From Cellulomonas taurus (GTDB lineage Bacteria > Actinomycetota > Actinomycetes > Actinomycetales > Cellulomonadaceae), in NCBI RefSeq assembly GCF_012931845.1, contig NZ_CP051884.1:1860001-1924000 (forward strand): a stretch of DNA of 64,000 bases, given 5' to 3'. Positions within the stretch are counted from its first letter, which is position 1; each line of letters opens with the position of its first letter. The translations under genes and the position numbers were made by a program. The notes below the pieces were generated by a model. The model saw only the letters and a list, made by a program, of their open reading frames with translations, made no database searches and was not told the DNA's origin. Shown in pieces: positions 4,115 through 44,044 of this stretch.

Positions 4115-4137
4115 GTCGTCCAGACTGCCACCGCGGG

Positions 4138-4149
4138 TAGCGTGACGCC
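4138..4149 (+). promoter_or_regulatory. -10 box (TAGCGT) for a leaderless yciI transcript
   Basis: TAGCGT at 4138-4143 lies exactly 6 nt before the ATG at 4150, with no Shine-Dalgarno in between. This spacing puts transcription start at the first base of the start codon. No clear -35. Confidence 0.55.
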
Positions 4150-4434
4150 ATGAGCCTCTACGCCGTGCAGTACCGCTACGACCAGCGCACCGACCTCCAG
4201 GACGAGGTCCGCCCCACCCACCGCGCCTACCTGCAGCAGGTCGCCGAACGCGGGCAGCTGCACGGCTCCGGCCCGTACACCGACGGGGAGCCGGGGGCGC
4301 TGCTGGTGTTCGACGCTCCGGACCGGGCGGCACTGGACGCCCTGCTGGCCGATGACCCCTTCGCCCGGGCCGGGGTGATCGCCGAGACGACCGTGCGGGA
4401 GTGGAAGCTCGTGATCGGCCCCTGGGCGGGCTGA
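4150..4434 (+). CDS. YciI family protein
   Basis: A 94-residue YCII-domain protein, the usual size for the ferredoxin-like dimeric fold. The conserved His (PTHRAYL), the G-x-L-x-G-S-G-P turn, an L-x-V-F-D-A strand and the DDPFARAGV segment are present, which include the His/Asp pair proposed as a catalytic or binding site in this family. It starts with ATG and has no ribosome binding site, consistent with a leaderless transcript. Family members range from peroxidase-like or dehydrochlorinase-like enzymes to uncharacterised proteins, so no substrate is assigned. It shares its upstream region with the divergent acyl-CoA dehydrogenase-like gene. Confidence 0.82.
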   Translation: MSLYAVQYRYDQRTDLQDEVRPTHRAYLQQVAERGQLHGSGPYTDGEPGALLVFDAPDRAALDALLADDPFARAGVIAETTVREWKLVIGPWAG

Positions 4435-4500: not shown

Positions 4501-5505
4501 TCAGCTGTCGACAGCTGCCCGTCGCTCGTCCCGCCGGGCGGCCGCCACGCTGGTCAGCGCGGTCACGCCGAGGATCAGCACGATCACGACCAGGGAGACC
4601 CAGGTCGGCGGCTCCGGTGCCCAGGAGACCTCCTGGCCCCCGTTGATGAACGGCAGCGTGTTCTCGGCCAGCGCCTGCAGCACCAGCTTCACGCCGATGA
4701 AGCCGAGCAGCACACCGAGGCCGATGTTCAGGTAGCGGAGTCGGGTCAGAAGTCCACCGAGCAGGAAGTACAGCTGGCGCAGCCCCATCAGCGCGAAGAC
4801 GTTCGCCATCAGGACCAGGTACGGCTCGCGGGTCACGCCGAAGACCGCGGGGATCGAGTCGAAGGCGAACAGCAGGTCGGTGGCGCCGATCGCGATCAGC
4901 ACCAGCAGCATCGGGGTGATCACCCGGCGACCGTTCTCCCGCGCGGTCAGGTGCACGCCCTCGAACCGGTCGCTGGTCGGCAGCACGCGCTGCACGATCC
5001 GGACCAGCGCGGGCGGCGTGTAGTCGTCGTCCTCCCCTGCCTCGTCGCCGACGCCCTCCCGGGCGACCTTGATCGCGGTCCAAACCAGGAACAGGCCGAA
5101 GAGGTAGAACACCCAGGAGAAGTGCGCGATCACCGTGGCACCGAGGGCGATGAAGATCCCCCGGAACACCAGCGCCAGGATGATCCCGACCAGGAGGGCG
5201 GTCTGCTGGTACTGCCGTGGCACGGCGAACCGGGTCATGATCAGCAGGAAGACGAACAGGTTGTCGACGCTCAGCGAGTACTCGGTCAGCCAGCCCGCGA
5301 CGAACTCGCCCGCCGGTGCCGTCCCCCAGGTCAGGGCGACGACACCGGCGAAGACCAACGCCAATCCGATGTAGACCCCCAGGTACCGCAGGCACTCGGC
5401 GGTGCTCGGGACGTGCGGTCGTCGGCCGACCACCGCCACGTCCACGACCAGGATCGCCAGTGCTGCGCCGATCGAGACGAGCCAGACCAGGGGGGAGACA
5501 TCCAT
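4501..5505 (-). CDS. TerC family integral membrane protein (distal)
   Basis: A 334-residue TerC/Alx family protein with about nine hydrophobic helices. The family hallmarks EYSLSVDNLFVFLLIM and FAFDSIPAVFGVT contain the acidic residues thought to bind metal. Characterised relatives export Mn2+ or supply metal to exported enzymes. A charged loop (EAGEDDDY) separates the two halves. It starts 9 bp after the stop of the upstream TerC paralogue and so is almost certainly cotranscribed and under the same manganese riboswitch. A second, non-identical TerC copy may allow a hetero-oligomer or different metal affinity; this is inference. Confidence 0.88.
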   Translation of the reverse strand: MDVSPLVWLVSIGAALAILVVDVAVVGRRPHVPSTAECLRYLGVYIGLALVFAGVVALTWGTAPAGEFVAGWLTEYSLSVDNLFVFLLIMTRFAVPRQYQQTALLVGIILALVFRGIFIALGATVIAHFSWVFYLFGLFLVWTAIKVAREGVGDEAGEDDDYTPPALVRIVQRVLPTSDRFEGVHLTARENGRRVITPMLLVLIAIGATDLLFAFDSIPAVFGVTREPYLVLMANVFALMGLRQLYFLLGGLLTRLRYLNIGLGVLLGFIGVKLVLQALAENTLPFINGGQEVSWAPEPPTWVSLVVIVLILGVTALTSVAAARRDERRAAVDS

Positions 5506-5514
5506 GCGGGTGGG

Positions 5515-6558
5515 TCAGCTCTCCTTGGCGACGGGGGTGGTGTCCTCGGACACGGTAGCGACCTCGGCGTCCCGGCCGTCGCGACGGGTCTTGATCAGCG
5601 AGGCGATGGTGGCGACGGTCAAGGTGCCGAGGATCACCAGCAGCGAGACCACCGTGGGGATCTCCGGCGCCCACTCGAAGTGCTCGCCGCCGTTGATGAA
5701 GCTCAGCTCGTTGGTGTGCATGGCGTGCAGCACCAGCTTCACGCCGATGAAGCCGAGGATGAACGCCAGCCCCTGGGACAGGTAGACCAGACGCTCCAGC
5801 AGACCACCGAGCAGGAAGTACAGCTGGCGCAGGCCCAGCAGGGCGAAGGCGTTCGCGGTGAAGACGATGTACGGCTCCTGGGTGATGCCGTAGATCGCCG
5901 GGATCGAGTCCAGCGCGAAGATCACGTCGGTGGAGCCGATGGCCGCCATCACCAGCAGCATCGGGGTGATGAACCGCTTGCCGTCGATCCGGGTGGTGAG
6001 CCGGTCGCCGTGGTACTCGTCGACGGTGGGCAGCACGCGCTTGAGCAGCCGGACCGTCAGGCCGTCCTTGCGTTCGCTCGCATGATCGACCTCACCGGGC
6101 TCGTGCTTCTCCCGGGCCAGGTTGATGCCGGTGTACACCAGGTACGCGCCGAAGATGTAGAACACCCAGGACCACTGCTCGATGGCGGCGGCACCGACCA
6201 GGATGAACACGGTGCGCAGGACCAGCGCGATCGCCACGCCGACCAGCAGCACCTTCTGCTGGTACTCCCGGGGCACCGCGAACTTGGTCATGATGATCAG
6301 GAAGATGAACAGGTTGTCCACCGAGAGCGCCTTCTCCGTGACGTACCCGGTGAAGTACTCGGTGCCGTGTCCCCAGCCCCACACCGCGCCCAGGCCGACG
6401 CCGAAGACCACGGCGAGGCCGATGTAGACCGCCGACCAGATCGCCGATTCCTTGAAGGTCGGTGCGTGCGGGGTCCGCACATGCGCGTAGAAGTCGAAGA
6501 TGACGAGGCCGAGCACAGCGGCGCCCGTGACCAGCCAGACCCACAGGTCAACTGACAT
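5515..6558 (-). CDS. TerC family integral membrane protein (riboswitch-proximal)
   Basis: A 347-residue TerC/Alx homologue, first gene of the pair. It has the same two signature motifs (EKALSVDNLFIFLIIM and FALDSIPAIYGIT) and several membrane helices; the C-terminus is a soluble tail. Expected role is manganese efflux or loading, by analogy with Alx and MntP-regulated systems. The ATG at 6558 is preceded by GGAGG at 6567-6571 (minus strand), which forms part of a 10-bp hairpin of the yybP-ykoY leader. Translation is therefore probably switched on by Mn2+. Confidence 0.9.
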   Translation of the reverse strand: MSVDLWVWLVTGAAVLGLVIFDFYAHVRTPHAPTFKESAIWSAVYIGLAVVFGVGLGAVWGWGHGTEYFTGYVTEKALSVDNLFIFLIIMTKFAVPREYQQKVLLVGVAIALVLRTVFILVGAAAIEQWSWVFYIFGAYLVYTGINLAREKHEPGEVDHASERKDGLTVRLLKRVLPTVDEYHGDRLTTRIDGKRFITPMLLVMAAIGSTDVIFALDSIPAIYGITQEPYIVFTANAFALLGLRQLYFLLGGLLERLVYLSQGLAFILGFIGVKLVLHAMHTNELSFINGGEHFEWAPEIPTVVSLLVILGTLTVATIASLIKTRRDGRDAEVATVSEDTTPVAKES

Positions 6559-6566
6559 GGATGTTT

Positions 6567-6690
6567 CCTCCGGTACAGGGGTTGACGAAGTACCGGAGGT
6601 CTCTCCCTACCCTGACGGGCCGGTGACCCCGGGCCGACGACGCAGTCGACCGTGATGACGGGGGCACCGTGACGGGATACTCCCCTCCAC
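6567..6690 (-). promoter_or_regulatory. yybP-ykoY manganese riboswitch controlling the TerC pair
   Basis: The minus-strand leader contains the two conserved pieces of the yybP-ykoY class: GGGGAGTAT at 6685-6677 and CAGGGTAGGGAGAGACCT around 6615-6598. A 5' GGAGG (6688-6684) can pair with CCTCC (6599-6595) to form the closing helix. The same CCTCC belongs to a perfect 10-bp stem 6590-6599 with 6567-6576, which buries the GGAGG ribosome binding site 8 nt before the TerC start. The two helices exclude each other, so ligand binding would free the ribosome binding site. Recognition is by eye; no covariance search was run. Confidence 0.85.
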
Positions 6691-6743
6691 AGCGCGCTCA
6701 GCCTAGGCCATCAGTCCTAGAACGACGAGCTGACCTGCGCGTG

Positions 6744-7187
6744 TCATGTGACACAGAATTCGTTGCCCTCGGGATCGGCGAGCACCACCCAGGCGCCCTC
6801 CCGCTCGTCGTCCACCTCGGTCAGCACGGTGGCGCCGGCCTCGACCAGGGTGGCCGCGTGCTCGCGGGCGGCGGCGAGCTTGGCGGCCCGGTCGCTCGGT
6901 GCGATGCCGCGCTCGGCGGAGAACCGCACGTCCAGGTGCAGCCGGTTCTTGACCGTCTTGGCCTCGGGCACCTTCTGGAAGAAGATCCGCGGCCCGCGAC
7001 CGGCGGGGTCGACGATCGCGTAGGCGGGGTCACGGTCGCCGTCCGGGCCGATCCCCCAGGCGTCCATCGCCTCGTCCCAGGAGCCGAAGGGCGGTCGCGG
7101 CGGTTCCTCCACGTAGCCGAGGGCGGTGATCCAGAACGCGCCGAGCGCGCGCGGGCCGTGGCAGTCGATCACGATCTGGACGTCCAT
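6744..7187 (-). CDS. VOC (glyoxalase-like) family protein
   Basis: About 147 residues with the two-fold beta-alpha-beta-beta-beta arrangement of the vicinal oxygen chelate superfamily: CHGPRALGAFWITALGY in the first half, RLHLDVRF in the middle and VLADPEGNEFCV at the C-terminus, typical of Glyoxalase_6-like proteins. The His of RLHLD and the Glu of GNEFC are candidate metal ligands. GTG (7190) and ATG (7187) are adjacent; GAGGGAG at 7193-7199 gives proper spacing only to the ATG, so 7187 is chosen. It lies 16 bp downstream of uvrB and may be read through from it. No substrate assigned. Confidence 0.78.
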   Translation of the reverse strand: MDVQIVIDCHGPRALGAFWITALGYVEEPPRPPFGSWDEAMDAWGIGPDGDRDPAYAIVDPAGRGPRIFFQKVPEAKTVKNRLHLDVRFSAERGIAPSDRAAKLAAAREHAATLVEAGATVLTEVDDEREGAWVVLADPEGNEFCVT

Positions 7188-7203
7188 CACGCGCTCCCTC
7201 GAG

Positions 7204-9306
7204 TCAGGCGGTCGCCGCCGTCATCTGTCGCAGTTCCTTCTTCAGGCCGGAGATCTCGTCCCGGAGCCGGGCGGCCAGCTCGAACTGCAGCTCCGCGGCG
7301 GCCGCGTGCATCTGGTCCGAGAGCTCCTGGATCAGATCGCCCAGCTCACCGGCGGCGGCACCGGCGAGCTTGGCCCGCTCGGTGGTCGGCGCCTTGGAGC
7401 CGAGGCCCGGGACCGGTGCCTTGCCCCGCGACGACTGCCGCCCGGCGCCACCGAGCAGCTCGGCGGTGTCGGCGTCCTCCCGGGCCAGCAGGTCGGTGAT
7501 GTCGCCGATCCGCTTGCGCAGCGGCTGCGGGTCGATGCCGTGCTCGGTGTTGTAGGCGATCTGGATCTCGCGGCGGCGGTTGGTCTCCTCGATGGCCTTG
7601 GCCATTCCGGCGGTGACCTTGTCCGCGTACATGTGCACCTGGCCGGAGACGTTACGGGCGGCACGGCCGATGGTCTGGATCAGCGAGGTGTCCGAACGCA
7701 GGAAGCCCTCCTTGTCGGCGTCCAGGATCGCGACCAGGGACACCTCCGGCAGGTCGAGGCCCTCGCGCAGCAGGTTGATGCCGACCAGGACGTCGTACTC
7801 GCCCATCCGCAGTTCCCGCAGCAGTTCGACCCGGCGCAGGGTGTCCACCTCGGAGTGCAGGTAGCGGACCCGGACACCCTTCTCCAGGAAGTAGTCGGTG
7901 AGGTCCTCCGCCATCTTCTTGGTCAGGGTGGTGACCAGCACGCGCTCGTCCTTCTCCACCCGGGTGCGGATCTCCTCCAGCAGGTCGTCGATCTGGCCCT
8001 GGGTGGGCTTGACCACCACCTCCGGGTCGATCAGGCCGGTGGGTCGGATGATCTGCTGCACCACACCGTCGGACTGGGACAGCTCGTAGTTGCCCGGCGT
8101 GGCCGACAGGTACACGGTCTGGCCGATCCGGTCGACGAACTCCTCCCAGCGCAGCGGCCGGTTGTCGGTGGCGGAGGGCAGGCGGAAGCCGTAGTCGACC
8201 AGGTTCCGCTTGCGGGACATGTCGCCCTCGTACATCGCACCGATCTGCGGCACGGTCACGTGCGACTCGTCGATCACCAGGAGGAAGTCCTCCGGGAAGT
8301 AGTCCAGCAGCGTGTTGGGCGCGGTGCCCGCCGCGCGGCCGTCGATGTGCCGGGAGTAGTTCTCGATCCCGGAGCAGCTGCCGATCTGGCGCATCATCTC
8401 GATGTCGTAGGTGGTGCGCATGCGCAGCCGCTGGGCCTCCAGCAGCTTGTTCTGCCGCTCCAGCTCGGCCAGGCGCTCCTCCAGCTCCAGCTCGATCCCG
8501 GCGATGGCGCGCTCCATCCGCTCCGGGCCGGCGACGTAGTGCGTGGCCGGGAAGACGTGCACCTGGGTCTCGTTGCGGACCACGTCACCGGTCAGCGGGT
8601 GCAGGGTCTGGATCGCCTCGATCTCGTCCCCGAAGAACTCGATCCGGATCGCCAGCTCCTCGTACACCGGGATGATCTCGACCGTGTCGCCCCGCACCCG
8701 GAAGGTGCCGCGGGTGAAGGCCATGTCGTTCCGGCTGTACTGCTGGGTCACGAAGTCGCGGAGCAGCTGGTCGCGGTCGATCACGTCGCCGACGCTCAGC
8801 GTGATCATCCGGTCGACGTACTCCTGCGGGGTGCCCAGACCGTAGATGCAGGACACTGACGCCACTACGACCACGTCGCGCCGGGTCAGCAGCGAGGAGG
8901 TGGCCGAGTGCCGGAGCCGCTCGACCTCGTCGTTGATCGACGAGTCCTTCTCGATGTAGGTGTCCGTCTGCGCGATGTACGCCTCGGGCTGGTAGTAGTC
9001 GTAGTACGAGACGAAGTACTCGACGGCGTTGTTGGGCAGCAGCTCGCGGAACTCGTTCGCCAACTGCGCGGCCAGGGTCTTGTTCGGCGCCATCACCAGG
9101 GTGGGGCGCTGCAGCTTCTCGATCAGCCAGGCCGTGGTGGCCGACTTACCGGTTCCGGTGGCGCCCAGCAGGACGACGTCCTTCTCCCCCGCGGTGATCC
9201 GCTCGGCCAGCTCCGCGATCGCGGTCGGCTGGTCACCGGAGGGGGTGTACTCGGACACCACCTCGAACGGGGCGACGGTGCGCTGGAGATCGGTGACGGG
9301 ACGCAT
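7204..9306 (-). CDS. uvrB: Excinuclease ABC subunit B
   Basis: UvrB, the damage-verifying helicase-like subunit of nucleotide excision repair, 700 residues and full length. Walker A GATGTGKS is at residues 48-55, the beta-hairpin region [11 protein letters not shown] follows, then VIDESH (Walker B/DEAD-type) and the helicase motifs [12 protein letters not shown] and QTIGRAARN. The C-terminal UVR domain (about residues 660-695, [14 protein letters not shown]) that contacts UvrA and UvrC is intact. TAGGGT lies 6 nt before the ATG, so the mRNA is probably leaderless. No LexA-type palindrome was recognised upstream. Confidence 0.97.
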
Positions 9307-9318
9307 GGGTAGACCCTA
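9307..9318 (-). promoter_or_regulatory. -10 box (TAGGGT) for leaderless uvrB
   Basis: On the minus strand TAGGGT (9318-9313) is followed by 6 nt (CTACCC) and the uvrB ATG at 9306. There is no ribosome binding site in the spacer. A -35 is not evident. Confidence 0.5.
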
Positions 9319-9403
9319 CGTCCGGGGTCTGACACCGGCGCTGGCAGCCCAGTCCACGACGGGTCAGTGCTACTCAGCGCTGGTCAGCGCCAGTCACTGC
9401 CGA

Positions 9404-10150
9404 TCAGTGCTCCGCGCCCGCGGCGACCACCGCGTCGTCGGCGGTGCTCAACGCCGCGCCCAGGATCGCCGCGAGTGCCCGAGCCGCGTCCCTCGCCGCC
9501 ATCGCGGGCGCACCCGCCGGCATCTGCTCCGGCAGCCGCGGCACATGCACGAACCCGCCCCGCACCCCCAGGTCGCCCACCGTGTAGGCGATCGTGTTGC
9601 AGACGTAGGTGCCCGCGGTGTTCGACACCTCCACCGGCACGCCGGTCGCCCGGGCCGCCAGCAGCGCCGCCTTGATCGGCAGCGTGGCGAAGTGGGCCGC
9701 CGGGCCGTGCGCGACCACCGGGACGTCGACCGGCTGGGCGCCGTCCTCGTCCGGGATGCGGGCGTCCTGGACATTGATGCCCACGCGTTCGATGGACACC
9801 CGGGCGCGTCCGCCCGCCTCGCCCACGCAGAGCACCAGGTCGGGGCGGTGCTCCGCGATCAGTTCGGCGAGGCGGCGGGGTGCCCGGGCGAAGGACACCG
9901 GGAGCATGCGGGCGATCAACCTCGGGGCGGGTGCGATCTCGCCCGAGCCGCTCTCCGGGGCGTCGTGGCAGCGCTCGTCGGCCACCGGTCCAGCCTCCCC
10001 GGCTGCATCACCCGGCTCCGCGGCGGGCAGGTGGTCCGCCACGTCCGACGGCCCCGCCCACAGGGCGGCCACCTCGCGCACCGCCGCCCAGGACGCGTTC
10101 ACCGGCTGGCCGTCGAAGGGTTCGAAGCCGGTCAGGAGCACCGTGGTCAT
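9404..10150 (-). CDS. pcp: Pyrrolidone-carboxylate peptidase (pyroglutamyl peptidase I)
   Basis: Cysteine peptidase of family C15 that removes N-terminal pyroglutamate. The N-terminal TGFEPFDG motif, the Glu region (GEAGGRARVSIERVG), the Cys in TAGTYVCNTIAY and the His in GFVHVPRLPEQ supply the catalytic triad. At 248 residues it is some 30 longer than typical enzymes; the extra residues form an acidic, Gly/Ala/Glu-rich insertion at about residues 35-75, between the N-terminal strand and the region preceding the Glu. Start at 10150 overlaps the coaE stop by 4 bp (ATGA), indicating translational coupling. An in-frame extension upstream lies inside coaE and is ignored. Confidence 0.92.
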   Translation of the reverse strand: MTTVLLTGFEPFDGQPVNASWAAVREVAALWAGPSDVADHLPAAEPGDAAGEAGPVADERCHDAPESGSGEIAPAPRLIARMLPVSFARAPRRLAELIAEHRPDLVLCVGEAGGRARVSIERVGINVQDARIPDEDGAQPVDVPVVAHGPAAHFATLPIKAALLAARATGVPVEVSNTAGTYVCNTIAYTVGDLGVRGGFVHVPRLPEQMPAGAPAMAARDAARALAAILGAALSTADDAVVAAGAEH

Positions 10151-10764
10151 CCGCGCTCGGCCTCCCGCTCGGCGGCGATCCGCTGCCACAGCTCGTCGAC
10201 CTGCGCACGCAGGTCCTCCGGGCTGCCAGTGCCGTCCAGCACCAGGTCCGCGGCGGCGACCCGCACGTCGTCGGACACCTGGGCGGCGATCCGGGCGCGG
10301 GCGTCGGCCTCGGACAGTCCGCGCCCGTCGACCAGGCGGCGCACCCGCAGCTCGACGTCCGCGACGATGGCGATCACCAGGTGGAACGAGTCGTCCCGGC
10401 CGGACTCGGCCAGCAGCGGGATGTCGTGCACGATCACCGCGTCCGGGTCGGCGGCGGCCGCTGCCGCCTCCCGCTCCGCCGCCAGTCGGCGCACGACCGG
10501 GTGCACGATGTGGTTGAGCGTCGTCCGCGCCGCGTCGTCGCCGAAGACGATGCTGCCGAGCGCCGGGCGGTCCAGCGCACCGTCGGTGGTCAGCACCTGC
10601 GGGCCGAAGGCGGCGGCGACGGCATCGAGGCCGGCGGAGCCCGGCGCGACCGCCTCGCGGGAGAGCAGGTCGTAGTCGATCACCACCGCACCCAGTCCGG
10701 CGAAGTGGGCCGCGGCGACCGACTTGCCGGCCGCGATACCCCCGGTCAGTCCGATGCGTTGCAT
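10147..10764 (-). CDS. coaE: Dephospho-CoA kinase
   Basis: CoaE phosphorylates the 3'-hydroxyl of dephospho-CoA in the last step of coenzyme A synthesis. 205 residues, with P-loop GLTGGIAAGKS at residues 5-15, the D-x-D region (VIDYDLLSREAV), the CoA-binding HPVVRR segment and VHDIPLLAESG. Unlike mycobacterial CoaE there is no C-terminal GrpB-like extension. It is translationally coupled to pcp downstream. Upstream, CAGGAT sits 6 nt before the ATG, a weak version of the leaderless pattern seen elsewhere in the window. Confidence 0.95.
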   Translation of the reverse strand: MQRIGLTGGIAAGKSVAAAHFAGLGAVVIDYDLLSREAVAPGSAGLDAVAAAFGPQVLTTDGALDRPALGSIVFGDDAARTTLNHIVHPVVRRLAAEREAAAAAADPDAVIVHDIPLLAESGRDDSFHLVIAIVADVELRVRRLVDGRGLSEADARARIAAQVSDDVRVAAADLVLDGTGSPEDLRAQVDELWQRIAAEREAERG

Positions 10765-35907: not shown

Positions 35908-36552
35908 TCAGCTGAGCTCGGCCACCGCGCGGTCGAAGTCCGCCACCGCGGCATCGGTCAGCGGCTCGTCGAACAGCCCCCGCGCCACCGCGGCACCCAC
36001 GGTCACCGCGTCGACCCCGGCCAGGGCCAGGCGGCGCACGTCGTCGGTGCTGCGGATGCTCGCTGCCAGCACCGCGGTGCCGGTCCCGGCGAGCAGGCGG
36101 TGCATCTGGGCCACCTGCTCGTGCCCGTCACGACCCTGCTCGGTCATCCGCCCGACGTAGGGCGCGATCCACCTCGCCCCGGCAGCGGCGGCGGTGAGGG
36201 CCTGCTTCGGGTGGTAGACCGCCGTGATCAGCACCGGCACTCCCTCGTCGCTGAGGCGCCGGGCCGCGCTCAGGCCGTCCCTGGTCGCCGGGATCTTCAC
36301 GACGAGCCGGTCCGAGAGCCGCCGCAGGTCACGGCCCTCGGCCACGATCGCGGTCGTGTCGGCAGCGGTGGTCTGCACGAACACCTCCGCACTTCCCCGG
36401 TCCAGCAGCCAGCGCACCAGCTGTGGCACCTCGGCCAGTCGGACGCCGCCGCGCTGGAGGATCAGCGGGTTGGTGGTCACCCCCGCGAACAGTCCGGTGT
36501 CGAGCAGCGGGCCGAGGTCCGCCCGGTCGGCGCAGTCCAGGTACAGCCGCAT
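35908..36552 (-). CDS. Transaldolase / fructose-6-phosphate aldolase-like protein
   Basis: A 214-residue short transaldolase-family barrel, the size of FSA/TalC enzymes rather than the 330-residue classical transaldolase. LYLDCADRADLGPLL and GVTTNPLIL are the N-terminal signatures, VVKIPAT contains the Schiff-base Lys, and AASIRSTDDV and VTVGAAV form the phosphate site. It lies 1 bp after the kinase stop and is the last gene of the sugar operon. Expected reaction: transfer or aldol cleavage of a dihydroxyacetone unit from a ketose phosphate. Confidence 0.88.
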   Translation of the reverse strand: MRLYLDCADRADLGPLLDTGLFAGVTTNPLILQRGGVRLAEVPQLVRWLLDRGSAEVFVQTTAADTTAIVAEGRDLRRLSDRLVVKIPATRDGLSAARRLSDEGVPVLITAVYHPKQALTAAAAGARWIAPYVGRMTEQGRDGHEQVAQMHRLLAGTGTAVLAASIRSTDDVRRLALAGVDAVTVGAAVARGLFDEPLTDAAVADFDRAVAELS

Positions 36553-36553
36553 G

Positions 36554-38023
36554 TCACTCCTTCTCGGTCGGTTGCCGCCACTCGGCTAGCGCCCGGTAGC
36601 GGTCGAGCACGGATTCGGGCAGCGCCGCCGCCGGGTCGGTGGTCGTGGTGGTGGCGGGGGCCCAGCTGTCGCGCACGGTGGTGACCGGCGCACGGGCGAG
36701 CACGGCCGCTGCTTGGATCGCCGCACCGCGGGCGGTGGCCTCCGGGGCTTCCCGGGTGGAGACCGGGCGGCCCAGCGCGTCGGCCAGCACCTGCCGATAG
36801 GCGGCGGAGCGTGCACCGCCCCCGGCGACCACCACCTCGCCGTCGGCGGCCGCCCCCGCCGCCCGGATGGCCCGGTGCCCGCGGAGCAGGCCGAGGATCA
36901 CCCCTTCGTGGGCGGCCAGGGCCAGTTCCTCGCGGGTGACGTCCGAGCGCAGTCCGCCCAGCAGCCCGCGCGCGTCCGGGCGGTCGGGAGTCCGCTCGCC
37001 GTCCAGGTAGGCGGCCAGCACCATCCGGTCGGGTCGCCGCTCGGCCGCGAGCGCCAGCGCCGCCAGCCCGGGCAGGTCGACGCCGAGCAGCCGGGCGACG
37101 GTGTCGGTGACCTTGGTGGAGTTGAGCGAGCACATCAGCGGCAACCAGCCGCCGGTGGCGTCGGCGACACCGTCCACCCAGCCGGTGCCGTCGTGCACCG
37201 GGGTCGCGGACGTGGTCATCACCACCCCGGAGGTGCCGAGGGAGTAGAGCACCTGTCCGGGTCCGAGCCCGATGCCGAGCGCTCCGGCGTGCTGGTCCCC
37301 CGCCCCGGCGCCGACCAGCACGTCCCGGCGCAGGCCCAGTGCGGTGGCGGCCCGGGTGTCGGCCCGTCCGACGGCCTCGTCGGGGCCGGCCACCCGGGGC
37401 AGCATCGGCGCCCAGTCCCGATCGGACCGGACCCAGCGCTCCAGCAAGTCGGTGCGGTAGCGGTCCTCGTGGGCGGCGAAGTACCCCGTGCCGGATGCCT
37501 CGGAGCGGTCGGTGACCGCCTCGCCGGTCAGGCGGAAGGTGAGCCAGTCGTGCGGGAGCAGCACCCGGTGTGCCCGATCCAGCAGCGCGGGCTCGTGGGC
37601 GGCCACCCAGGCGAGTTTGGTGATCGTGAACGCGGCGGTGGGCACCGAGCCGACCGCCTCCGCCCAGCCGGACGCTCCGAGGTCCGCCACCATCGCGGCC
37701 GCCTGGGGCGCCGACGTCGTGTCGTTCCACAGCTTCGCCGCCCGGAGCACCCGGTCGGCCTCGTCCAGCAGCACCAGGCCGTGGCACTGGGCGGCGATGC
37801 TCACCGCGTCGATCCGGTCGGCGGTCAGCCCTGCCTGGTCCAGGGCAGCGGCCAGGGCGAGCCGGAGCGCCGACCACCAGTCCTCCGGGTCCTGCTCGGA
37901 GACCGGGGGCGCGGTGGCCGGATGCGGCGACCGTCCGGCGCCGAGCACCCGACCGTCGTCGGCGTCCCGCAGTTCCACGGTGCACGACTGGGTGGAGGAG
38001 TCCACCCCCGCCACCACGCCCAT
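36554..38023 (-). CDS. FGGY-family carbohydrate kinase (xylulokinase-like)
   Basis: A 489-residue sugar kinase of the FGGY family. The N-terminal domain begins GVDSSTQSCTVEL; GAGDQHAGALG contains the catalytic Asp; the C-terminal ATP-binding region has VVVAGGGARSAAYRQVLADALGRPV. Its overall pattern resembles xylulokinase more than glycerol kinase. ATG overlaps the stop of the SIS gene by one base (TGATG). Together with the ABC importer and isomerase it should phosphorylate an imported pentulose, pentitol or related sugar. Confidence 0.9.
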   Translation of the reverse strand: MGVVAGVDSSTQSCTVELRDADDGRVLGAGRSPHPATAPPVSEQDPEDWWSALRLALAAALDQAGLTADRIDAVSIAAQCHGLVLLDEADRVLRAAKLWNDTTSAPQAAAMVADLGASGWAEAVGSVPTAAFTITKLAWVAAHEPALLDRAHRVLLPHDWLTFRLTGEAVTDRSEASGTGYFAAHEDRYRTDLLERWVRSDRDWAPMLPRVAGPDEAVGRADTRAATALGLRRDVLVGAGAGDQHAGALGIGLGPGQVLYSLGTSGVVMTTSATPVHDGTGWVDGVADATGGWLPLMCSLNSTKVTDTVARLLGVDLPGLAALALAAERRPDRMVLAAYLDGERTPDRPDARGLLGGLRSDVTREELALAAHEGVILGLLRGHRAIRAAGAAADGEVVVAGGGARSAAYRQVLADALGRPVSTREAPEATARGAAIQAAAVLARAPVTTVRDSWAPATTTTTDPAAALPESVLDRYRALAEWRQPTEKE

Positions 38024-38655
38024 CAGCGGTCGCCGATCGGCGGGAGCTCGTCCGGCAGGTCGGCGCGCTTGCCCACCGCCCCGGCCGGGTGGGTGAACAG
38101 CACCTGTTCCCACCCGTACCCCCGGCGTCGCATCAGCACAGCGGCCAGGGCGTCGCCCCACACCGCGGTGGCCAGGGTCGACCCCATCGCGATCACCCCA
38201 CCGGGGTCGACCTCCGGCCCGGGGTCGATCACCACGGTGAGGTCGGCGAGCAGACCCAGGGTGGATCCTGGCGTCGCCGTGAGGGCGATCACCGGCACAC
38301 CGCGGCGCTGCACCCGGGCCGAGAGGTCGTTCAGCTCGTCCGACTCCCCGCCCCGGGAGATGGTGATCAGCAGGTCCCCGGCGGCGACCGCGCCCATCGT
38401 GCCGTGCAGGGCGTCCATCCCGGGCAGGAACACCGCCGGTGTCCCGCAGACCGACAGCAGATGGGCCATCCGGCGTGCCACCGCACCGGAGGTGCCGGAA
38501 CCGGTGACGAACACCTTCCCGGTGCAGGCGTCGACGAGTTCCACCGCCCGCAGGAAGGTGTCGTCGAGCTGCTCGGCCACGGCTGCCACGCCGCCGCCCT
38601 CCCGTCGCACCAGCTCGCGGGCGGTGCGCAGGGTGTCCTCGGCGCTGCTGGTCAT
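38023..38655 (-). CDS. SIS-domain sugar phosphate isomerase (KdsD/GutQ-like)
   Basis: A 210-residue SIS protein. The sugar isomerase motif VFVTGSGTSGAVARRMAHLL, ISRGGESDELN, and the C-terminal FTHPAGAVGKR resemble arabinose-5-phosphate isomerases (HPGGALGRR in KdsD), but the CBS pair of KdsD is absent. 6-phospho-3-hexuloisomerase-like activity is an alternative. ATG at 38655 is chosen over in-frame GTG/ATG codons upstream because GGAGG lies 7 nt before it. It is 17 bp from the ABC ATPase gene. Confidence 0.85.
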   Translation of the reverse strand: MTSSAEDTLRTARELVRREGGGVAAVAEQLDDTFLRAVELVDACTGKVFVTGSGTSGAVARRMAHLLSVCGTPAVFLPGMDALHGTMGAVAAGDLLITISRGGESDELNDLSARVQRRGVPVIALTATPGSTLGLLADLTVVIDPGPEVDPGGVIAMGSTLATAVWGDALAAVLMRRRGYGWEQVLFTHPAGAVGKRADLPDELPPIGDR

Positions 38656-38672
38656 GGTGGTGCCTCCGGGGG

Positions 38673-40208
38673 TCATGCCGCGGTCCACGCGGCGCGGCGC
38701 AGTGACTGGGGGGTGCGGTCCTTGGCGGTCAGCGGGGTCCCGCTCGTGCGGCCGTGCGACATCACCACCACGTCGTCGGCGACCTCGGCCACCTCGTCCT
38801 CCTCGGAGGAGACCAGGACCACGGTGAGGCCCGACTCGTGCGCGAGGGCCCGGACGATCCGGTGGATCTCCGCCTTCACGCCCAGGTCGACGCCCTTGGT
38901 GGGTTCGTCCAGGAGCAGGATCCGGGGCCGCTGCGCGATCGCCCGCGCCAGGAGCACCTTCTGCTGGTTACCACCGGACAGCCGGACCACCGGTCCGTGC
39001 CGGTCGCCCCGGACCCGGAGCCGTTCCAACAGGTCCTCGGCATCGCGCTGCACCGCCGCCCGGTCGAGGAATCCCGCCCGCCGGTACCGGCCGAGCACCG
39101 GCAGCGCCACGTTCTGCGGCGAGGACAGCCCGGGGACGATCCCGTCGTGCTTGCGTTCCTCGGTCAGGTACACCAGCCCGGCACGCTGCGCCCCTGCCGG
39201 GGTGCGTGGCCGGTGGTGCTGCCCGTCGAGCAGCACCCGTCCGGCCGTGATCGGGTTCAGTCCGACCAGGGCGCGCAGGGTCTCGGTCCGCCCGGCACCG
39301 ACCAGGCCGTAGATGCCGAGCACCCGGCCCGGCTCGGCGCGCAGGCTGACCCCGTGCACCCCGCCGGCGTGCAGGTCGTGCACCTCGAGGAGGCGGCCGC
39401 CCCGGCCCTTCGACGGCAGGGCGGCCACCACCTCGCGGGTCTCCCGGCCCACTTCGGCCGGGACCGGTGAGGAGGCGGACGCGGGGGCCGCCGCCTCCTC
39501 ACCGGCGATCGCGGTGACCACGTCGTCCCGGGACACTTCGTCCACCCGGGCGTCGATCCGCAGTCGACCGTCCACCAGCGCCGCCACCCGGTTGCACACC
39601 GCGTACAGCTCGTCGAGTTTGTGATCGACGAACACGATGCCCAGCCCACGCTCCTGCGCCAGGTGCCGGACCATCTCCAGCAGCCGGTCGACCTGGGTGC
39701 CCTCCAGGGCGGTCGTCGGCTCGTCCAGCAGCAGGAACCGCGCCTTGCGGTGGGTGGCGACCGCGATCTCCAGCATCTGCCGGGTCGCGACCGGGTACTC
39801 ACCGAGCTTGCGGTCGACGTCCAGGTCCAGCCCGAAGGACGCCACCAGCTCCCGGGCACCGGTACGCATCTCCTCCCGGCGGAGCATCCCGGCACGGGAC
39901 CGCTCGTCGCCCAGGTAGACGTTCTGGGTGACGGTCAGGTTCGGCAGCAGCGAGAGCTCCTGGTACACGGTGGCGACTCCGGCCGCGATGGCGTCCCGGG
40001 GCCCGGCGATGTCCTGCCGGACCCCGTCCACCTCGATGTTCCCCTGGTCGGGGGTGGTGGCGCCGGAGATCACCCGGAGCAGGGTCGACTTGCCCGCACC
40101 GTTGTGCCCGACCAGCCCGACCACGTCTCCTGGCCGGACCTCCAGGTCGATCCCGTGCAACACGGTGACCCCGGAGTACCGCTTGACGATCTTCCGCACG
40201 CCGAGCAT
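38673..40208 (-). CDS. Sugar ABC transporter ATP-binding protein (RbsA type)
   Basis: A 511-residue CUT2-class ATPase with two nucleotide-binding halves. The first has Walker [10 protein letters not shown] and Walker [12 protein letters not shown], with a degenerate signature ([13 protein letters not shown]). The second has the deviant P-loop GLVGAGRTE usual in this class, the signature [14 protein letters not shown] and [12 protein letters not shown]. The linker (about residues 240-280) is Ala/Pro/Glu-rich. ATG at 40208, 4 bp after the binding protein stop, is preferred to the overlapping GTG at 40226. Confidence 0.93.
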
Positions 40209-40212
40209 CGGA

Positions 40213-41223
40213 TCAGCCCACCTCACCCGGACCGGGGGTCTGCCCGGTGGTGAACTCCTTGAGGGACTTCAGCACCTCCGGCTGGACCTCCTTGCCGTCC
40301 ACGTAGTCCCGGACCTGCTGCACCACGTCGGCGCCGTAGGCCTCCGGCTCCTGGGCCACGCAGCCCGGGTACTGGTCGGTCAGCGCGGTCTCCGCGGCGC
40401 AGAACCCGTAGACCTTCACCGTGGAGTTGCTGCCCAGCGCCTGCAACGCGCCGTAGGCGGCCGGACCGGTGGACGCGAAGATCACGTTGATGTCCGGGTT
40501 GCCGGACAGCATCTCCGTGGTGGCCCGGAGCGAGTCGTCCGGCTTGACGTTGCCGTCCACCCGGGCGACCACCTTCGCGTTGGGGTCGGCGGCGATCGCG
40601 TCCTCGAAGCCCTGGTCGCGCTGCTGGGTGGGCGTCTCGTCGGGCTCGGTGACGAAGCCGATCGTCAGCTCCGCGTCGGCCCCGAAGTCGGCCAGGACCT
40701 GCTCCGCCGACTGCTTGCCGCCCTCGGCGTTGTCGGCACCGAGGTACTGCACGATGTGCCCACCCTGCGCCTGCAGCGCGTCCGGGTCGACCCCGACGTT
40801 CACCACGAACACCGGCACCCCGGCGTCGTTGGCGGCCTTGACCAGCGCGGCGGCCGGCTCCGACTTCACCGGGTTCAGGGCCAGCGCGCACGGCTTCTTC
40901 TGGAGCATCGACTGCACCTGCGAGAGCTGGTTGGCGTCGTCGTCGTCGGCGATCTGCACCTCGACGGTGAAGCCCTGCTCCTTGCCGGCGTCCTCGAAGC
41001 CCTGCTTCATCGCCACGTAGTACGGATTGGTCAGGTTGGGCAGGGCCACGGCCAGGAAGGGGATGTCGTCCGAGCAGCTGGCGGGCAGTTCCTGGGCGGC
41101 GGTGGTGTCACCGTCGGTGGAACCGCCGCCGGAGCCGGCTCCGGTGTCCACGGCACCGCAGGCGCTCAGCGCCCAGATCACGCCGATCGTGGCGGGGCCG
41201 GTCAGCAGGTGGCGTCGCTTCAT
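40213..41223 (-). CDS. Sugar ABC transporter substrate-binding lipoprotein
   Basis: A 336-residue periplasmic-binding-protein-type (ribose/LacI fold) lipoprotein. The signal peptide ends in LSAC (Cys22). A disordered Gly/Ser/Thr linker is followed by the two-lobed domain: FLAVALPNLTNPYYVAMKQGFEDAG, ALNPVKSEPAAALVKAANDAGVPVFVVN, GDN-like VIFASTGPAAYGALQALG. It carries internal cysteines (Cys50, Cys112, and two late ones), two of which could form disulfides. GAGGAG is present before the ATG. Ligand unknown; pentoses and pentitols are typical for this class. Confidence 0.92.
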   Translation of the reverse strand: MKRRHLLTGPATIGVIWALSACGAVDTGAGSGGGSTDGDTTAAQELPASCSDDIPFLAVALPNLTNPYYVAMKQGFEDAGKEQGFTVEVQIADDDDANQLSQVQSMLQKKPCALALNPVKSEPAAALVKAANDAGVPVFVVNVGVDPDALQAQGGHIVQYLGADNAEGGKQSAEQVLADFGADAELTIGFVTEPDETPTQQRDQGFEDAIAADPNAKVVARVDGNVKPDDSLRATTEMLSGNPDINVIFASTGPAAYGALQALGSNSTVKVYGFCAAETALTDQYPGCVAQEPEAYGADVVQQVRDYVDGKEVQPEVLKSLKEFTTGQTPGPGEVG

Positions 41224-41257
41224 TGCTCTGTCTCCTCGTGCTGGTGGGGGGTGGGGA

Positions 41258-42301
41258 TCAGCTCCGTGCGGCCGCGGTGTCGCGGCTCGCCGGACTGGGG
41301 CTGTCGGGGGTGCTGGACGCAGGGCCGTCGGGCCGGCGCAGGGTCCGTCTGAGCAGGTCGCTGAGCGACGACTGGCGACGGTAGGTGTCGATGATCACGC
41401 CGCCGAGGATGATCAGACCGATCACCAGCGGCTGCCAGTAGGACTGGACCCCGACCACATTCATGCCGTTCGAGACGGTGGCGATCAGGATGGCGCCCAG
41501 CAGCGCACCGGGCAGGGACCCGATCCCGCCGAACAGCGACACCCCGCCGACCACCGCGGCGGCGATCGAGTAGAAGAGCTCGTTGCCGGATCCGGCGGAG
41601 GGGTAGCCGACCATCAGGCGGCTGGTGGTGATCAGCCCGCCCATCCCGGCACAGAACCCGCTGATCGCGTAGACCAGCATCGTGACCCGGCCGATCGCGA
41701 TGCCGGACAGCCGGGCGGTCTCGGCATTGCCGCCCACCGCGTAGATCCGCACGCCGGTGGGGGTCAACCGCAGCAGGACGGTGAGGATCACCACGAAGAC
41801 CGCGACCAGCACCACCGGCATCGGGATGCCGAACAGCGACCCGCGCCCGATCACCGCGAACATCGGGTCGGTCACGTTGACCGAGCTCGCCCCGGTGAGG
41901 ATCAGCGGGATGCTGGCGGCGACGCCGAAGGCGGCGAAGGTGACGATGAACGGTGGCAGTTTCAGGTAGTGGATCAGGGCGCCGTTGATGACGCCGACCA
42001 GAGCGCCGACCGCCAGTGCGGCGAGGGCCGCGAGCCACCAGGGCAGTCCGGCCCGCATGGTGAGCGCGGCGATCATGCCGGTCAGCGCGATGTTGGACCC
42101 GGTGGACAGGTCGATGCCGCCGGTGAGCAGCACGAATGCCTGTCCCATCGCCAGGAAGGCGATCACCGCGCCGTTCAGCAGCAGCAGGTTCGCGTTGTCC
42201 ACTGTCCGGAACGTGGGCGACATCAGGGAGAAGATCGCCACCACCAGGACGATGACCACCCCGATCCCGAGCTCTTCGGGGAACCGTCGTCGCTTCGCCA
42301 T
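41258..42301 (-). CDS. Sugar ABC transporter permease (RbsC type)
   Basis: A 347-residue BPD_transp_2 family permease with nine or ten membrane helices. AFLAMGQAFVLLTGGIDLSTGS, GVRIYAVGGNAETARLSGI and AAAVVGGVSLFGGIGSLPGALLGA are the usual signatures. The C-terminus is Pro/Ser-rich. ATG at 42301 has GGAGG 7 nt upstream; the open frame continues upstream but without initiation signals. It is the first gene of the six-gene sugar operon, preceded by a promoter (TTGAGT, 17 nt, TAGTGT) and palindromic operators. Confidence 0.93.
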   Translation of the reverse strand: MAKRRRFPEELGIGVVIVLVVAIFSLMSPTFRTVDNANLLLLNGAVIAFLAMGQAFVLLTGGIDLSTGSNIALTGMIAALTMRAGLPWWLAALAALAVGALVGVINGALIHYLKLPPFIVTFAAFGVAASIPLILTGASSVNVTDPMFAVIGRGSLFGIPMPVVLVAVFVVILTVLLRLTPTGVRIYAVGGNAETARLSGIAIGRVTMLVYAISGFCAGMGGLITTSRLMVGYPSAGSGNELFYSIAAAVVGGVSLFGGIGSLPGALLGAILIATVSNGMNVVGVQSYWQPLVIGLIILGGVIIDTYRRQSSLSDLLRRTLRRPDGPASSTPDSPSPASRDTAAARS

Positions 42302-42327
42302 GCCTCTGCCTCCTCGCAGTGGACCGG

Positions 42328-42341
42328 TGCTCATGTGAGCA
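42328..42341. promoter_or_regulatory. Palindromic operator 1 (TGCTCATGTGAGCA)
   Basis: Perfect palindrome with 6-bp arms TGCTCA/TGAGCA, located in the leader between the permease promoter and the permease start. Proposed site for the divergent SorC regulator. Confidence 0.7.
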
Positions 42342-42348
42342 GTTCTGG

Positions 42349-42362
42349 CGCTCACCTGACAG
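42349..42362. promoter_or_regulatory. Degenerate operator half-site at the permease transcription start
   Basis: CGCTCACCTGACAG keeps the left arm (GCTCA) and part of the right (TGA) of the operator. Its centre lies 21 bp (two helical turns) from operator 1 and it overlaps the predicted transcription start near 42361. Confidence 0.35.
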
Positions 42363-42367
42363 CTTGG

Positions 42368-42396
42368 ACACTACGCGGCGATGCGACCCAACTCAA
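42368..42396 (-). promoter_or_regulatory. Predicted promoter of the sugar operon
   Basis: On the minus strand TTGAGT (42396-42391) and TAGTGT (42373-42368) are separated by 17 nt, the best -35/-10 pair in the region. Confidence 0.6.
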
Positions 42397-42431
42397 GCCC
42401 TCAATGTCACAAATGTGCGTCGGATTCGGTC

Positions 42432-42437
42432 TACAGT
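42432..42437 (+). promoter_or_regulatory. -10 box (TACAGT) for the leaderless SorC regulator
   Basis: TACAGT ends 6 nt before the ATG at 42444, and the spacer is the left arm of operator 2, so there is no room for a ribosome binding site. Confidence 0.65.
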
Positions 42438-42451
42438 GCTCACATGAGCAC
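42438..42451. promoter_or_regulatory. Palindromic operator 2 (TGCTCACATGAGCA) over the regulator start codon
   Basis: Arms identical to operator 1 with the central dinucleotide in reverse complement. The ATG of the regulator lies inside it, immediately after the -10 box, so a bound regulator would block its own transcription. Confidence 0.7.
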
Positions 42452-43397
42452 TTCGGAGGACTGGGAGCAGATGGTCCGCGCCGCCCGGCGCTACTACCTG
42501 GACGACGCCCCCAAGAAGCTGATCGGCGAGGAGCTGGGCGTCTCCCGGTTCAAGGTCGCCCGGCTGCTGGAACAGGCCCGCGACCAAGGGGTGGTCACGA
42601 TCACCATCCAGGACGGCGGACTACGCCTGCCCGGCATCTCGGCGCAGGTCCAGGACCACCTGGGTCTGTCCCGGGTCACGGTGATCGAGTCCAGCGGCGA
42701 CGACTCCGAGGTCCGACGCCAGGTCGGCGAGGCGGCCGCGGAGCTGCTCGGAGCCACCCTGCGTCCGGGTGAGGTGCTCGGCCTCGCCTGGGGGCGCACC
42801 CTCACCGCGATGAGCGCCTCGATGCCACCGCTGCCGCCCCTGGACGTGGTGCAGCTGACCGGGGCGATCGGCACCGACCTGGCCGACTCACCGGTGGAGG
42901 TGGTCCGGCGGGTGGCCCTGAGCTCCGGCGGCACCGCCCGGCCGATCTTCGCCCCCTTGGTGGTCGACTCGCCGGAGACCGCCGAGGCGCTGCGCCGCCA
43001 ACCCGACGTCGCCGCCGCCCTCGACCAGTTCGACGCCCTGTCCACCGCCGTGGTCAGTGTCGGGTCGTGGGACCCGCCCGAGTCCCAGCTGCTGCGCACG
43101 GTCGGCGAGCGGGAACAGGCCGACCTGCTCGCGCGCGGGGTGGTCGCCGAGGTCGCCTCGATCCTGGTCGCCGACGACGGCGAGGCGGTGGCGCCGGACT
43201 TCCAGGCACGGTGCCTGACCATCTCCCCCGATCAGATGCGCCGGATCCCCCGGGTGGTGGCCGTCGCCGGTGGGGCGCGCAAGGCCCGGGCGCTCGCCGC
43301 GGTGGTGCGGGCCGGGCTGGTCACCGAACTGGTCTGCGACCGCGCCCTGGCCGAGGCGGTCCTGACCCTCCCCCGGGTCGAGCAGGGACGACGGTGA
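42444..43397 (+). CDS. SorC/DeoR-family sugar-binding transcriptional regulator
   Basis: A 317-residue regulator. Residues about 8-55 form a winged helix-turn-helix (AARRYYLDDAPKKLIGEELGVSRFKVARLLEQA, diagnostic core IGEELGVSRFKVARLL); residues about 60-315 are the SorC sugar-phosphate-binding domain with VLGLAWGRTLTAM and VVAVAGGARKARAL. It is transcribed divergently from the sugar operon, shares the two palindromes, and overlaps the epimerase gene by 4 bp. Expected role: repressor or dual regulator released by a phosphorylated intermediate. ATG 42444 is preferred over the upstream in-frame ATG 42381 because of the TACAGT box. Confidence 0.9.
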   Translation: MSTSEDWEQMVRAARRYYLDDAPKKLIGEELGVSRFKVARLLEQARDQGVVTITIQDGGLRLPGISAQVQDHLGLSRVTVIESSGDDSEVRRQVGEAAAELLGATLRPGEVLGLAWGRTLTAMSASMPPLPPLDVVQLTGAIGTDLADSPVEVVRRVALSSGGTARPIFAPLVVDSPETAEALRRQPDVAAALDQFDALSTAVVSVGSWDPPESQLLRTVGEREQADLLARGVVAEVASILVADDGEAVAPDFQARCLTISPDQMRRIPRVVAVAGGARKARALAAVVRAGLVTELVCDRALAEAVLTLPRVEQGRR

Positions 43398-44044
43398 CCC
43401 TGGTCGCCGCGTCGCTGTGGTCGGTGCCGCCCGCCGAGCGCCCGGTCCTGGCCGACCGGCTGGCGGCCGCCGGACTGCGGCGCTGGCACTGGGACGTCTC
43501 CGACGGGGACTTCGCCGCACCGGGTGGCTTCACCCCGGACGAGGCGGCCGCGATCACGGCCCGGACCGGGCTGCCCGGCGAGGCGCATCTGATGGTGACC
43601 GAACCGGCGGAGCAGGTCGCCGCCTGGGCGGCGGTGTGCGAGCGGGTGATCGTGCACGTGGAGGCCACCGGCTGGCGCGCGGCGCTGGACCTGGTGGTGG
43701 CACTCGGTGCGACACCGGGGATCGCCCTGTCCCCGCACACCCCCGCCGCACTGCCGGCGGGTCTGCCCGCCGGGACGGTGGTGCTGCTGATGTCGATCAC
43801 CCCGGGCCGGGCCGGAGCGGCCTTCCGCCCGGACACCCTGGCGCGGCTGGCTGCGCTGCGGTCGGGCACACAACCGGGCCCGGCTGCGTCAGCCACCGCC
43901 ACCCGAGGGGAGCTGGGGGTCGACGGCGGGGTCACCCCGGCACTGGCCAGATCCTGCGCGGCGCACGGTGCCGATTGGGTCGTCTCGGGCGGTTCGCTGT
44001 GCACCGCGGCCGACCCGCGAGCATGGCTCGACTCCGTCCAGTGA
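43394..44044 (+). CDS. Ribulose-phosphate 3-epimerase family protein
   Basis: A 216-residue (beta/alpha)8 epimerase-like protein. The metal site residues of RPE can be placed: His and Asp in WHWDVSDGDF, His in EAHLMV and Asp in LGVDGGVTP. The SVNPGFGGQ loop of true Rpe is changed to SITPGRAGAAF, so the substrate may differ, for example allulose-6-phosphate or another ketose phosphate. GTG overlaps the regulator stop by 4 bp (GTGA), so regulator and enzyme are translated as a pair. It should act after the kinase and isomerase of the divergent operon. Confidence 0.82.
   Translation: MTLVAASLWSVPPAERPVLADRLAAAGLRRWHWDVSDGDFAAPGGFTPDEAAAITARTGLPGEAHLMVTEPAEQVAAWAAVCERVIVHVEATGWRAALDLVVALGATPGIALSPHTPAALPAGLPAGTVVLLMSITPGRAGAAFRPDTLARLAALRSGTQPGPAASATATRGELGVDGGVTPALARSCAAHGADWVVSGGSLCTAADPRAWLDSVQ

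Follow-up and report, generated by a model that had tools for sequence, protein, structure and literature searches.

A candidate operon for pentulose uptake and arabinose-5-phosphate cleavage in Cellulomonas taurus

Gene organization, transport and regulation

We analyzed an eight-gene sugar uptake and catabolism locus of Cellulomonas taurus, located in a 64,000-nt window (the whole stretch of DNA under analysis) that covers 1.86–1.92 Mb of a 3.44-Mb single-contig genome with Cellulomonas as its closest relatives. Gene families were checked against Pfam and NCBIfam models with curated cutoffs applied. Six genes lie on the minus strand, encoding an RbsC/AraH-type permease (41258–42304; PF02653), a sugar-binding lipoprotein with an RbsB-like fold and an altered pocket (40213–41223; PF13407, 137 bits), the RbsA-type double ATPase of a sugar ATP-binding cassette (ABC) importer (38673–40208; matched by the AraG, YtfR and XylG models, each under its cutoff), a single-domain SIS sugar-phosphate isomerase of a GxGTSG subfamily (38023–38655; 210 aa, PF01380), an FGGY pentulose kinase of the XylB type (36554–38023; 489 aa), and an FSA-like class I aldolase annotated as TAL_FSA (35908–36552; 214 aa, PF00923, 133 bits). 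The plus strand carries a SorC/DeoR-family regulator (42444–43397, with the longest open reading frame starting at 42381; PF04198, 185.9 bits) and a divergent homologue of ribulose-phosphate 3-epimerase (RPE) (43394–44044; PF00834, 86.6 bits).

The genes are tightly packed. On the minus strand, 1 bp separates the aldolase and kinase genes, the kinase and SIS genes overlap by one base, and gaps of 17, 4 and 34 bp follow between SIS and ATPase, ATPase and binding protein, and binding protein and permease; the regulator and epimerase genes overlap by 4 bp. A preceding sequence-only reading had described six packed minus-strand genes diverging from a regulator-epimerase pair; its genes, strands and spacing were borne out, but the range it gave (36554–44044) holds only five of the six, as the aldolase gene falls outside. 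The mshC gene (TIGR03447) flanks the other side of the block and lies outside the operon. The gene identities, conservation, linkage, FSA-type residues and operator-like repeats reported here are read directly from sequence.

Two 16-bp inverted repeats with the consensus GTGCTCA-YR-TGAGCA(C/G) lie 109 bp apart and are unique to the locus: GTGCTCA-TG-TGAGCAG (42327–42342), one mismatch from a perfect palindrome, upstream of the permease gene, and the perfect GTGCTCA-CA-TGAGCAC (42436–42451) at the start of the regulator, the latter being the sole exact match in the 3.44-Mb genome. A genome search for further members of the regulon returned one two-mismatch match, equal to the control count, and nothing beyond background. 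Because these operator-like repeats are unique in the genome, the regulator, which is related to the DeoR, LsrR and SorC structures, seems to serve this locus alone. From the position and sequence of the repeat, translation of the regulator probably begins not at 42381 but at an ATG inside the frame, near 42444. A search of the divergent region found no sigma-70-like promoter.

We compared the binding protein with its orthologs in ten aligned sequences (down to 62% identity), bearing in mind that the RbsB alignment is partly gapped near D89/R90. The ribose-pocket residues D89, R90, N190 and D215 of RbsB are replaced by N142, V143, T252 and C275, and these replacements are invariant in all ten sequences. 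Such invariance suggests that the binding proteins of all these loci probably share one ligand, and probably do not bind it as RbsB binds D-ribose. Besides the lipobox cysteine, four cysteines (C50, C112, C275 and C288) are also invariant in the ten orthologs. Possibly they form two disulfides; C275 occupies the site at which RbsB has its ligand residue Asp215.

The general plan of the operon resembles that of the lsr (autoinducer-2) operon, which combines an RbsA-type importer, an FGGY kinase and the SorC/DeoR-family regulator LsrR. In contrast to lsr, neither LsrF nor LsrG is found among the eight genes, and we rejected an autoinducer-2 system because the LsrK, LsrA and LsrR models all scored far under cutoff.

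Conservation of the block and linkage of isomerase and aldolase

Scanning genome contigs with the SIS protein yielded 22 loci. Most of the Cellulomonas, Georgenia and Actinotalea-like loci retain the complete block, in which the epimerase and regulator genes diverge from permease, binding protein, ATPase, SIS, kinase and aldolase genes. The Microbacteriaceae loci (Amnibacterium, Microbacterium testaceum) have it in rearranged form, and losses have affected it in Actinomyces and in metagenome-assembled genomes (MAGs) of Propionibacteriaceae and Bifidobacteriaceae. This recurrence in independent genomes indicates that the arrangement is not due to chance. The distribution is patchy even within the genus, with a close SIS in 6 of 37 Cellulomonas genomes; a phylum-wide search found only distant SIS matches outside the order.

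The isomerase and the aldolase were strongly associated. In a sample of 396 genomes of the order, with a close SIS defined by E ≤ 1e-40, the FSA-like aldolase was present in 11 of 12 genomes with a close SIS versus 30 of 384 others (Fisher p = 4e-11); the association persisted without the own genus (p = 3e-9) and when counted by genus (p = 7e-4). The two genes were 2.1–8.4 kb apart in all 11 co-carrying genomes, and 8.7 kb apart in a further genome, G246, whose SIS is more distantly related. Five loci had no adjacent aldolase; in two of these (L042, L044) the genome encodes a same-clade aldolase at another site. A well-supported actinobacterial clade unites the aldolases; within it, linkage to SIS is non-monophyletic (five changes, at least four of them forced), so this linkage was gained or lost repeatedly.

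Members of the aldolase clade also occur in other surroundings, as read from sequence. At L141–L144 they stand inside clusters resembling L-fuconate pathways, which suggests further aldolase specificities. At L138 and L140 the gene lies between a short-chain dehydrogenase/reductase (SDR) gene and a mannitol-dehydrogenase-family gene, and at L145 beside an SDR gene, each time with a polyol-type ABC importer and without a kinase.

Variant loci keep the SIS, aldolase and SorC genes while kinase and transporter are exchanged. In L077, L078 and L080, the kinase that accompanies SIS, aldolase and SorC is of the AraB type; L079 has a XylB-type kinase, RPE, a zinc polyol-dehydrogenase-like protein, SDR and aldolase; L081 combines a zinc dehydrogenase with a XylB-type kinase; and L082 is an AraB-AraD-SIS-RPE operon with an aldolase nearby. 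The ribulokinase model (cutoff 583) was passed in both L082 (614 bits) and L078 (629 bits), and the AraD of L082 scored 269 bits (cutoff 257). Beside a related SIS on a Pantoea plasmid, the kinase matched the FGGY pentulose-kinase family at 690 bits (cutoff 409). A plasmid search further returned SIS and FGGY clusters without aldolase in Rhizobium, Pantoea and Duffyella, along with many biosynthetic KpsF/KdsD genes. Finding XylB, AraB and FGGY-pentulose kinases beside one isomerase family suggests a pentulose-5-phosphate as the common input and as the substrate of that isomerase, and the AraD and polyol dehydrogenases of the variants argue against phosphorylation of an aldose as the entry step. 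These observations agree with the sequence-only reading in so far as it proposed a pentulose or pentitol system with a kinase, a KdsD/GutQ-like isomerase and a 3-epimerase, distinct from the standard ribose, xylose and arabinose operons.

That reading had also listed allulose-type hexoses as candidates, which we judge less likely because three families of pentulokinase are represented among the kinases adjacent to the isomerase, and because AraD is present in one variant. In such a ketohexose route, an allose-, altrose- or allulose-type hexose would be phosphorylated, isomerized and 3-epimerized to fructose-6-phosphate (F6P), which the aldolase would cleave to glyceraldehyde-3-phosphate (GAP) and dihydroxyacetone, the latter being consumed by DhaK. 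The FSA residues of the aldolase, the presence of DhaK and the ability of FSA to make altrose-6-phosphate as well would all fit. However, DhaK occurs in 35 of 36 Cellulomonas genomes whether or not the operon is present, the variants carry pentulokinases and AraD, and the epimerase homologue scored only 42.1 bits against the AlsE (D-allulose-6-phosphate 3-epimerase) model with its cutoff of 271, on which ground an AlsE-type allulose system was rejected. We regard the ketohexose route as very doubtful.

Model scores and active-site residues of the enzymes

The kinase exceeded the cutoff of the XylB model TIGR01312 (408.9 versus 380.25 bits), and is 48% identical to a second XylB homologue elsewhere in the genome. 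The aldolase fell short of TIGR00875 (158.4 bits, cutoff 245.95) but carries the FSA reference residues Gln59, Lys85 (the Schiff-base lysine), Ala129, Tyr131, Arg134 and Ser166. The Thermotoga maritima transaldolase has Glu at position 59, Ser at 129 and Phe at 131, whereas the window aldolase and its orthologs have Q59 and Y131. The active-site residues are thus shared with Escherichia coli FsaA, from which the window aldolase differs by its separate actinobacterial clade and its linkage to a pentulokinase and SIS. In a Bifidobacteriaceae MAG (L043, 7048–7908), the aldolase gene contains a mid-gene in-frame insertion of repeated ATASQPADAD-like units.

The C3 transfer that the sequence-only reading considered is not supported for this short transaldolase: its aldolase signature (Q59, A129, Y131) makes aldol cleavage the likelier reaction. 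The same residues bear on the possibility that the operon is a private pentose-phosphate set, in which three of its enzymes (RPE, a transaldolase and a SIS of Rpi-like function) would duplicate steps of the non-oxidative pentose-phosphate pathway and, together with the chromosomal transketolase, drain kinase-made D-xylulose-5-phosphate (Xu5P) into F6P and GAP. An RPE homologue and a TAL_FSA member are indeed present, and the input would be a pentulose phosphate. Yet the aldolase lacks transaldolase residues, the genome already has a housekeeping RPE and transaldolase, and the SIS is a member of the KdsD family rather than a ribose-5-phosphate isomerase; we therefore consider this explanation unlikely.

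For the SIS protein, KdsD was the best NCBIfam match (131.6 bits, cutoff 505), TIGR00393 was matched at 116.5 bits (cutoff 203.7), and both histidine positions (KdsD H88 and H193) are retained. Its earlier description as KdsD/GutQ-like holds for the family and these histidines, but not for the architecture: the protein consists of one SIS domain and lacks the CBS domains found in KdsD/GutQ. It also has the motifs GxGTSG and S[KR]GG, whereas the biosynthetic isomerases have GxGKSG and SNSGE, and it is tied to sugar catabolism instead of 3-deoxy-D-manno-octulosonate (KDO) synthesis. The closest solved structure, 3fxa (from Listeria), shares the threonine motif and is named only "SIS domain protein". 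Amnibacterium flavum (L038) has two SIS paralogs in one cluster (3797–4402 and 10001–10597), which share approximately 50% and 68% identity, respectively, with the window copy; the first reads GGAS instead of GGES.

These features raise the possibility that the GxGTSG proteins are new isomerases with another substrate (for example a tetrulose or deoxy sugar phosphate) in a different pathway. The catalytic lysine is changed in the entire subfamily, the related 3fxa has no functional name, and the pocket of the binding protein is unlike that of RbsB. On the other side stand the pentulokinase neighbors and a Streptomyces sp. NBC_00440 plasmid (L160, 7066–9241), on which a Thr-type SIS lies between kdsA and kdsB; this context needs D-arabinose-5-phosphate (A5P), and so counts for A5P as the substrate of a Thr-type SIS. 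Another substrate appears improbable to us. The L160 genes constitute a KDO-type module in a Gram-positive organism, with cytochrome P450 and terpene synthase genes close by.

All four metal-ligand positions (H, D, H, D) are preserved in the RPE homologue, and in this protein and its orthologs the active-site Met is replaced by Ser or Ala (HWDx[SA]DG). The altered phosphate loop noticed in the sequence-only reading was confirmed, being TPG-x-AG-[SA]-xF in place of NPGFGGQxF and kept in the orthologs. Against TIGR01163 the protein scored 97.5 bits (cutoff 212.6). A ribulose-monophosphate-type HxlA/HxlB pair was rejected, given an HxlB score of 51 bits (cutoff 160) and the retained RPE metal ligands of the epimerase. 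In Actinomyces culturomici (L044, 3853–5082), a mannose-isomerase-like AGE gene occupies the place where the RPE homologue would sit.

A possible route through arabinose-5-phosphate

The genes and their conservation are real, and the pathway is deduced from them: each reaction, the direction of flux, the regulator binding and the imported sugar are what we infer. The RbsABC-type importer would take up a pentulose or a pentulose precursor, and the XylB-type kinase would convert the pentulose to Xu5P. The RPE-like enzyme would then form D-ribulose-5-phosphate (Ru5P), the SIS enzyme would isomerize Ru5P to A5P, and the FSA-like aldolase would cleave A5P to glycolaldehyde and GAP. The pentose would thereby be split from C5 into C2 and C3, bypassing transketolase and transaldolase, and the operon would be inducible through binding of the SorC regulator to the two putative operators in the divergent promoter region. 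This route is the cheapest reading that uses all genes, and we assign an inducible operon for uptake and cleavage of a pentulose (or precursor) via A5P a probability of roughly 0.4.

The last two reactions have precedents. E. coli FsaA, whose physiological function was called unclear, cleaves A5P, for which its reported specificity is higher than for F6P; in vitro, Ru5P is turned into glycolate by KdsD, FsaA and AldA, with A5P and glycolaldehyde as intermediates (PMC6900487). In the opposite sense, FsaA gave A5P as the sole product from glycolaldehyde and GAP, and FsaA was also used with KdsD and RPE in that direction (PMC9947464). With glycolaldehyde as donor, FSA products are 2S,3R (PMC8208507), a stereochemistry that matches an isomerase of the A5P type rather than one of the Rpi type. 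As a pair, isomerase and aldolase correspond to a published A5P-cleavage module, a point absent from the sequence-only reading. The engineered "glycoptimus" pathway (PMC6900487) and the synthetic Ara5P-dependent glycolaldehyde assimilation pathway (PMC9947464) share with the locus the Xu5P entry, RPE, a SIS-family A5P isomerase and FSA as A5P aldolase; they use scattered E. coli genes, whereas the Cellulomonas homologues lie in one natural operon with an importer and a regulator, and the Cellulomonas SIS lacks the KdsD lysine.

Several observations weigh against this route. All window-type SIS proteins have Thr in place of KdsD Lys59, and conservation of E111/E152 is not strict; the SIS is therefore not a canonical A5P isomerase, and the missing lysine makes A5P isomerase activity the weakest link of the route. 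The RPE homologue has diverged, and some variants lack it. Of the five loci that have no aldolase beside them, L037 and L040 belong to genomes with none at all, and L034 to one whose only aldolase is distant (34%) and falls outside the clade. The same aldolase clade also occurs without SIS in the mannitol-dehydrogenase and L-fuconate-like clusters, so the clade as a whole is not A5P-specific. No glycolaldehyde enzyme was found linked to the operon, GlcD-like genes do not track it, and co-occurrence of glycolate oxidase or DhaK did not discriminate between a C2 and a dihydroxyacetone fate. Finally, a Lacticaseibacillus paracasei plasmid operon (L158) has RPE, HxlB and a related SIS together behind a phosphotransferase system (PTS), and no kinase or aldolase.

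The L158 run (5335–9790) comprises PTS IIA/IIC/IIB, YjbQ, a Thr-type SIS, RPE and HxlB, with the PTS replacing kinase and importer. It would fit direct entry of an aldose phosphate, as in a scheme where the kinase acts on D-arabinose or another aldopentose at O5, SIS converts A5P to Ru5P, RPE forms Xu5P, and the aldolase is accessory. All reaction types would fit such D-arabinose entry, and the aldolase-free loci would make sense; but three pentulokinase families would each have had to switch to an aldose, and the AraD and polyol dehydrogenases of the variants indicate ketose intermediates, which leaves this scheme distinctly unlikely.

Kentache et al. (2016) reportedly described Listeria pentitol operons with pentose-phosphate enzymes and PTS transport. 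Their likeness to the present locus would lie in the pentose-phosphate enzymes and in the Listeria SIS (3fxa) as closest solved relative, and the PTS would set them apart. In agreement with the sequence-only reading, which knew of no described system with exactly these genes, our literature searches found neither a natural system with this gene set nor a natural record of this pentose-splitting route.

We tentatively propose, at somewhat below even odds, a natural pentose catabolism that cleaves A5P to glycolaldehyde and GAP, with GxGTSG proteins as catabolic A5P isomerases and FSA-like enzymes as A5P aldolases. Should this hold, nature would use a route that has until now been known only from engineering (PMC6900487, PMC9947464), and FSA-type aldolases and catabolic KdsD-like isomerases would gain a physiological role. 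Engineered pathways for glycolate and glycolaldehyde would likewise profit from natural enzymes tuned to A5P.

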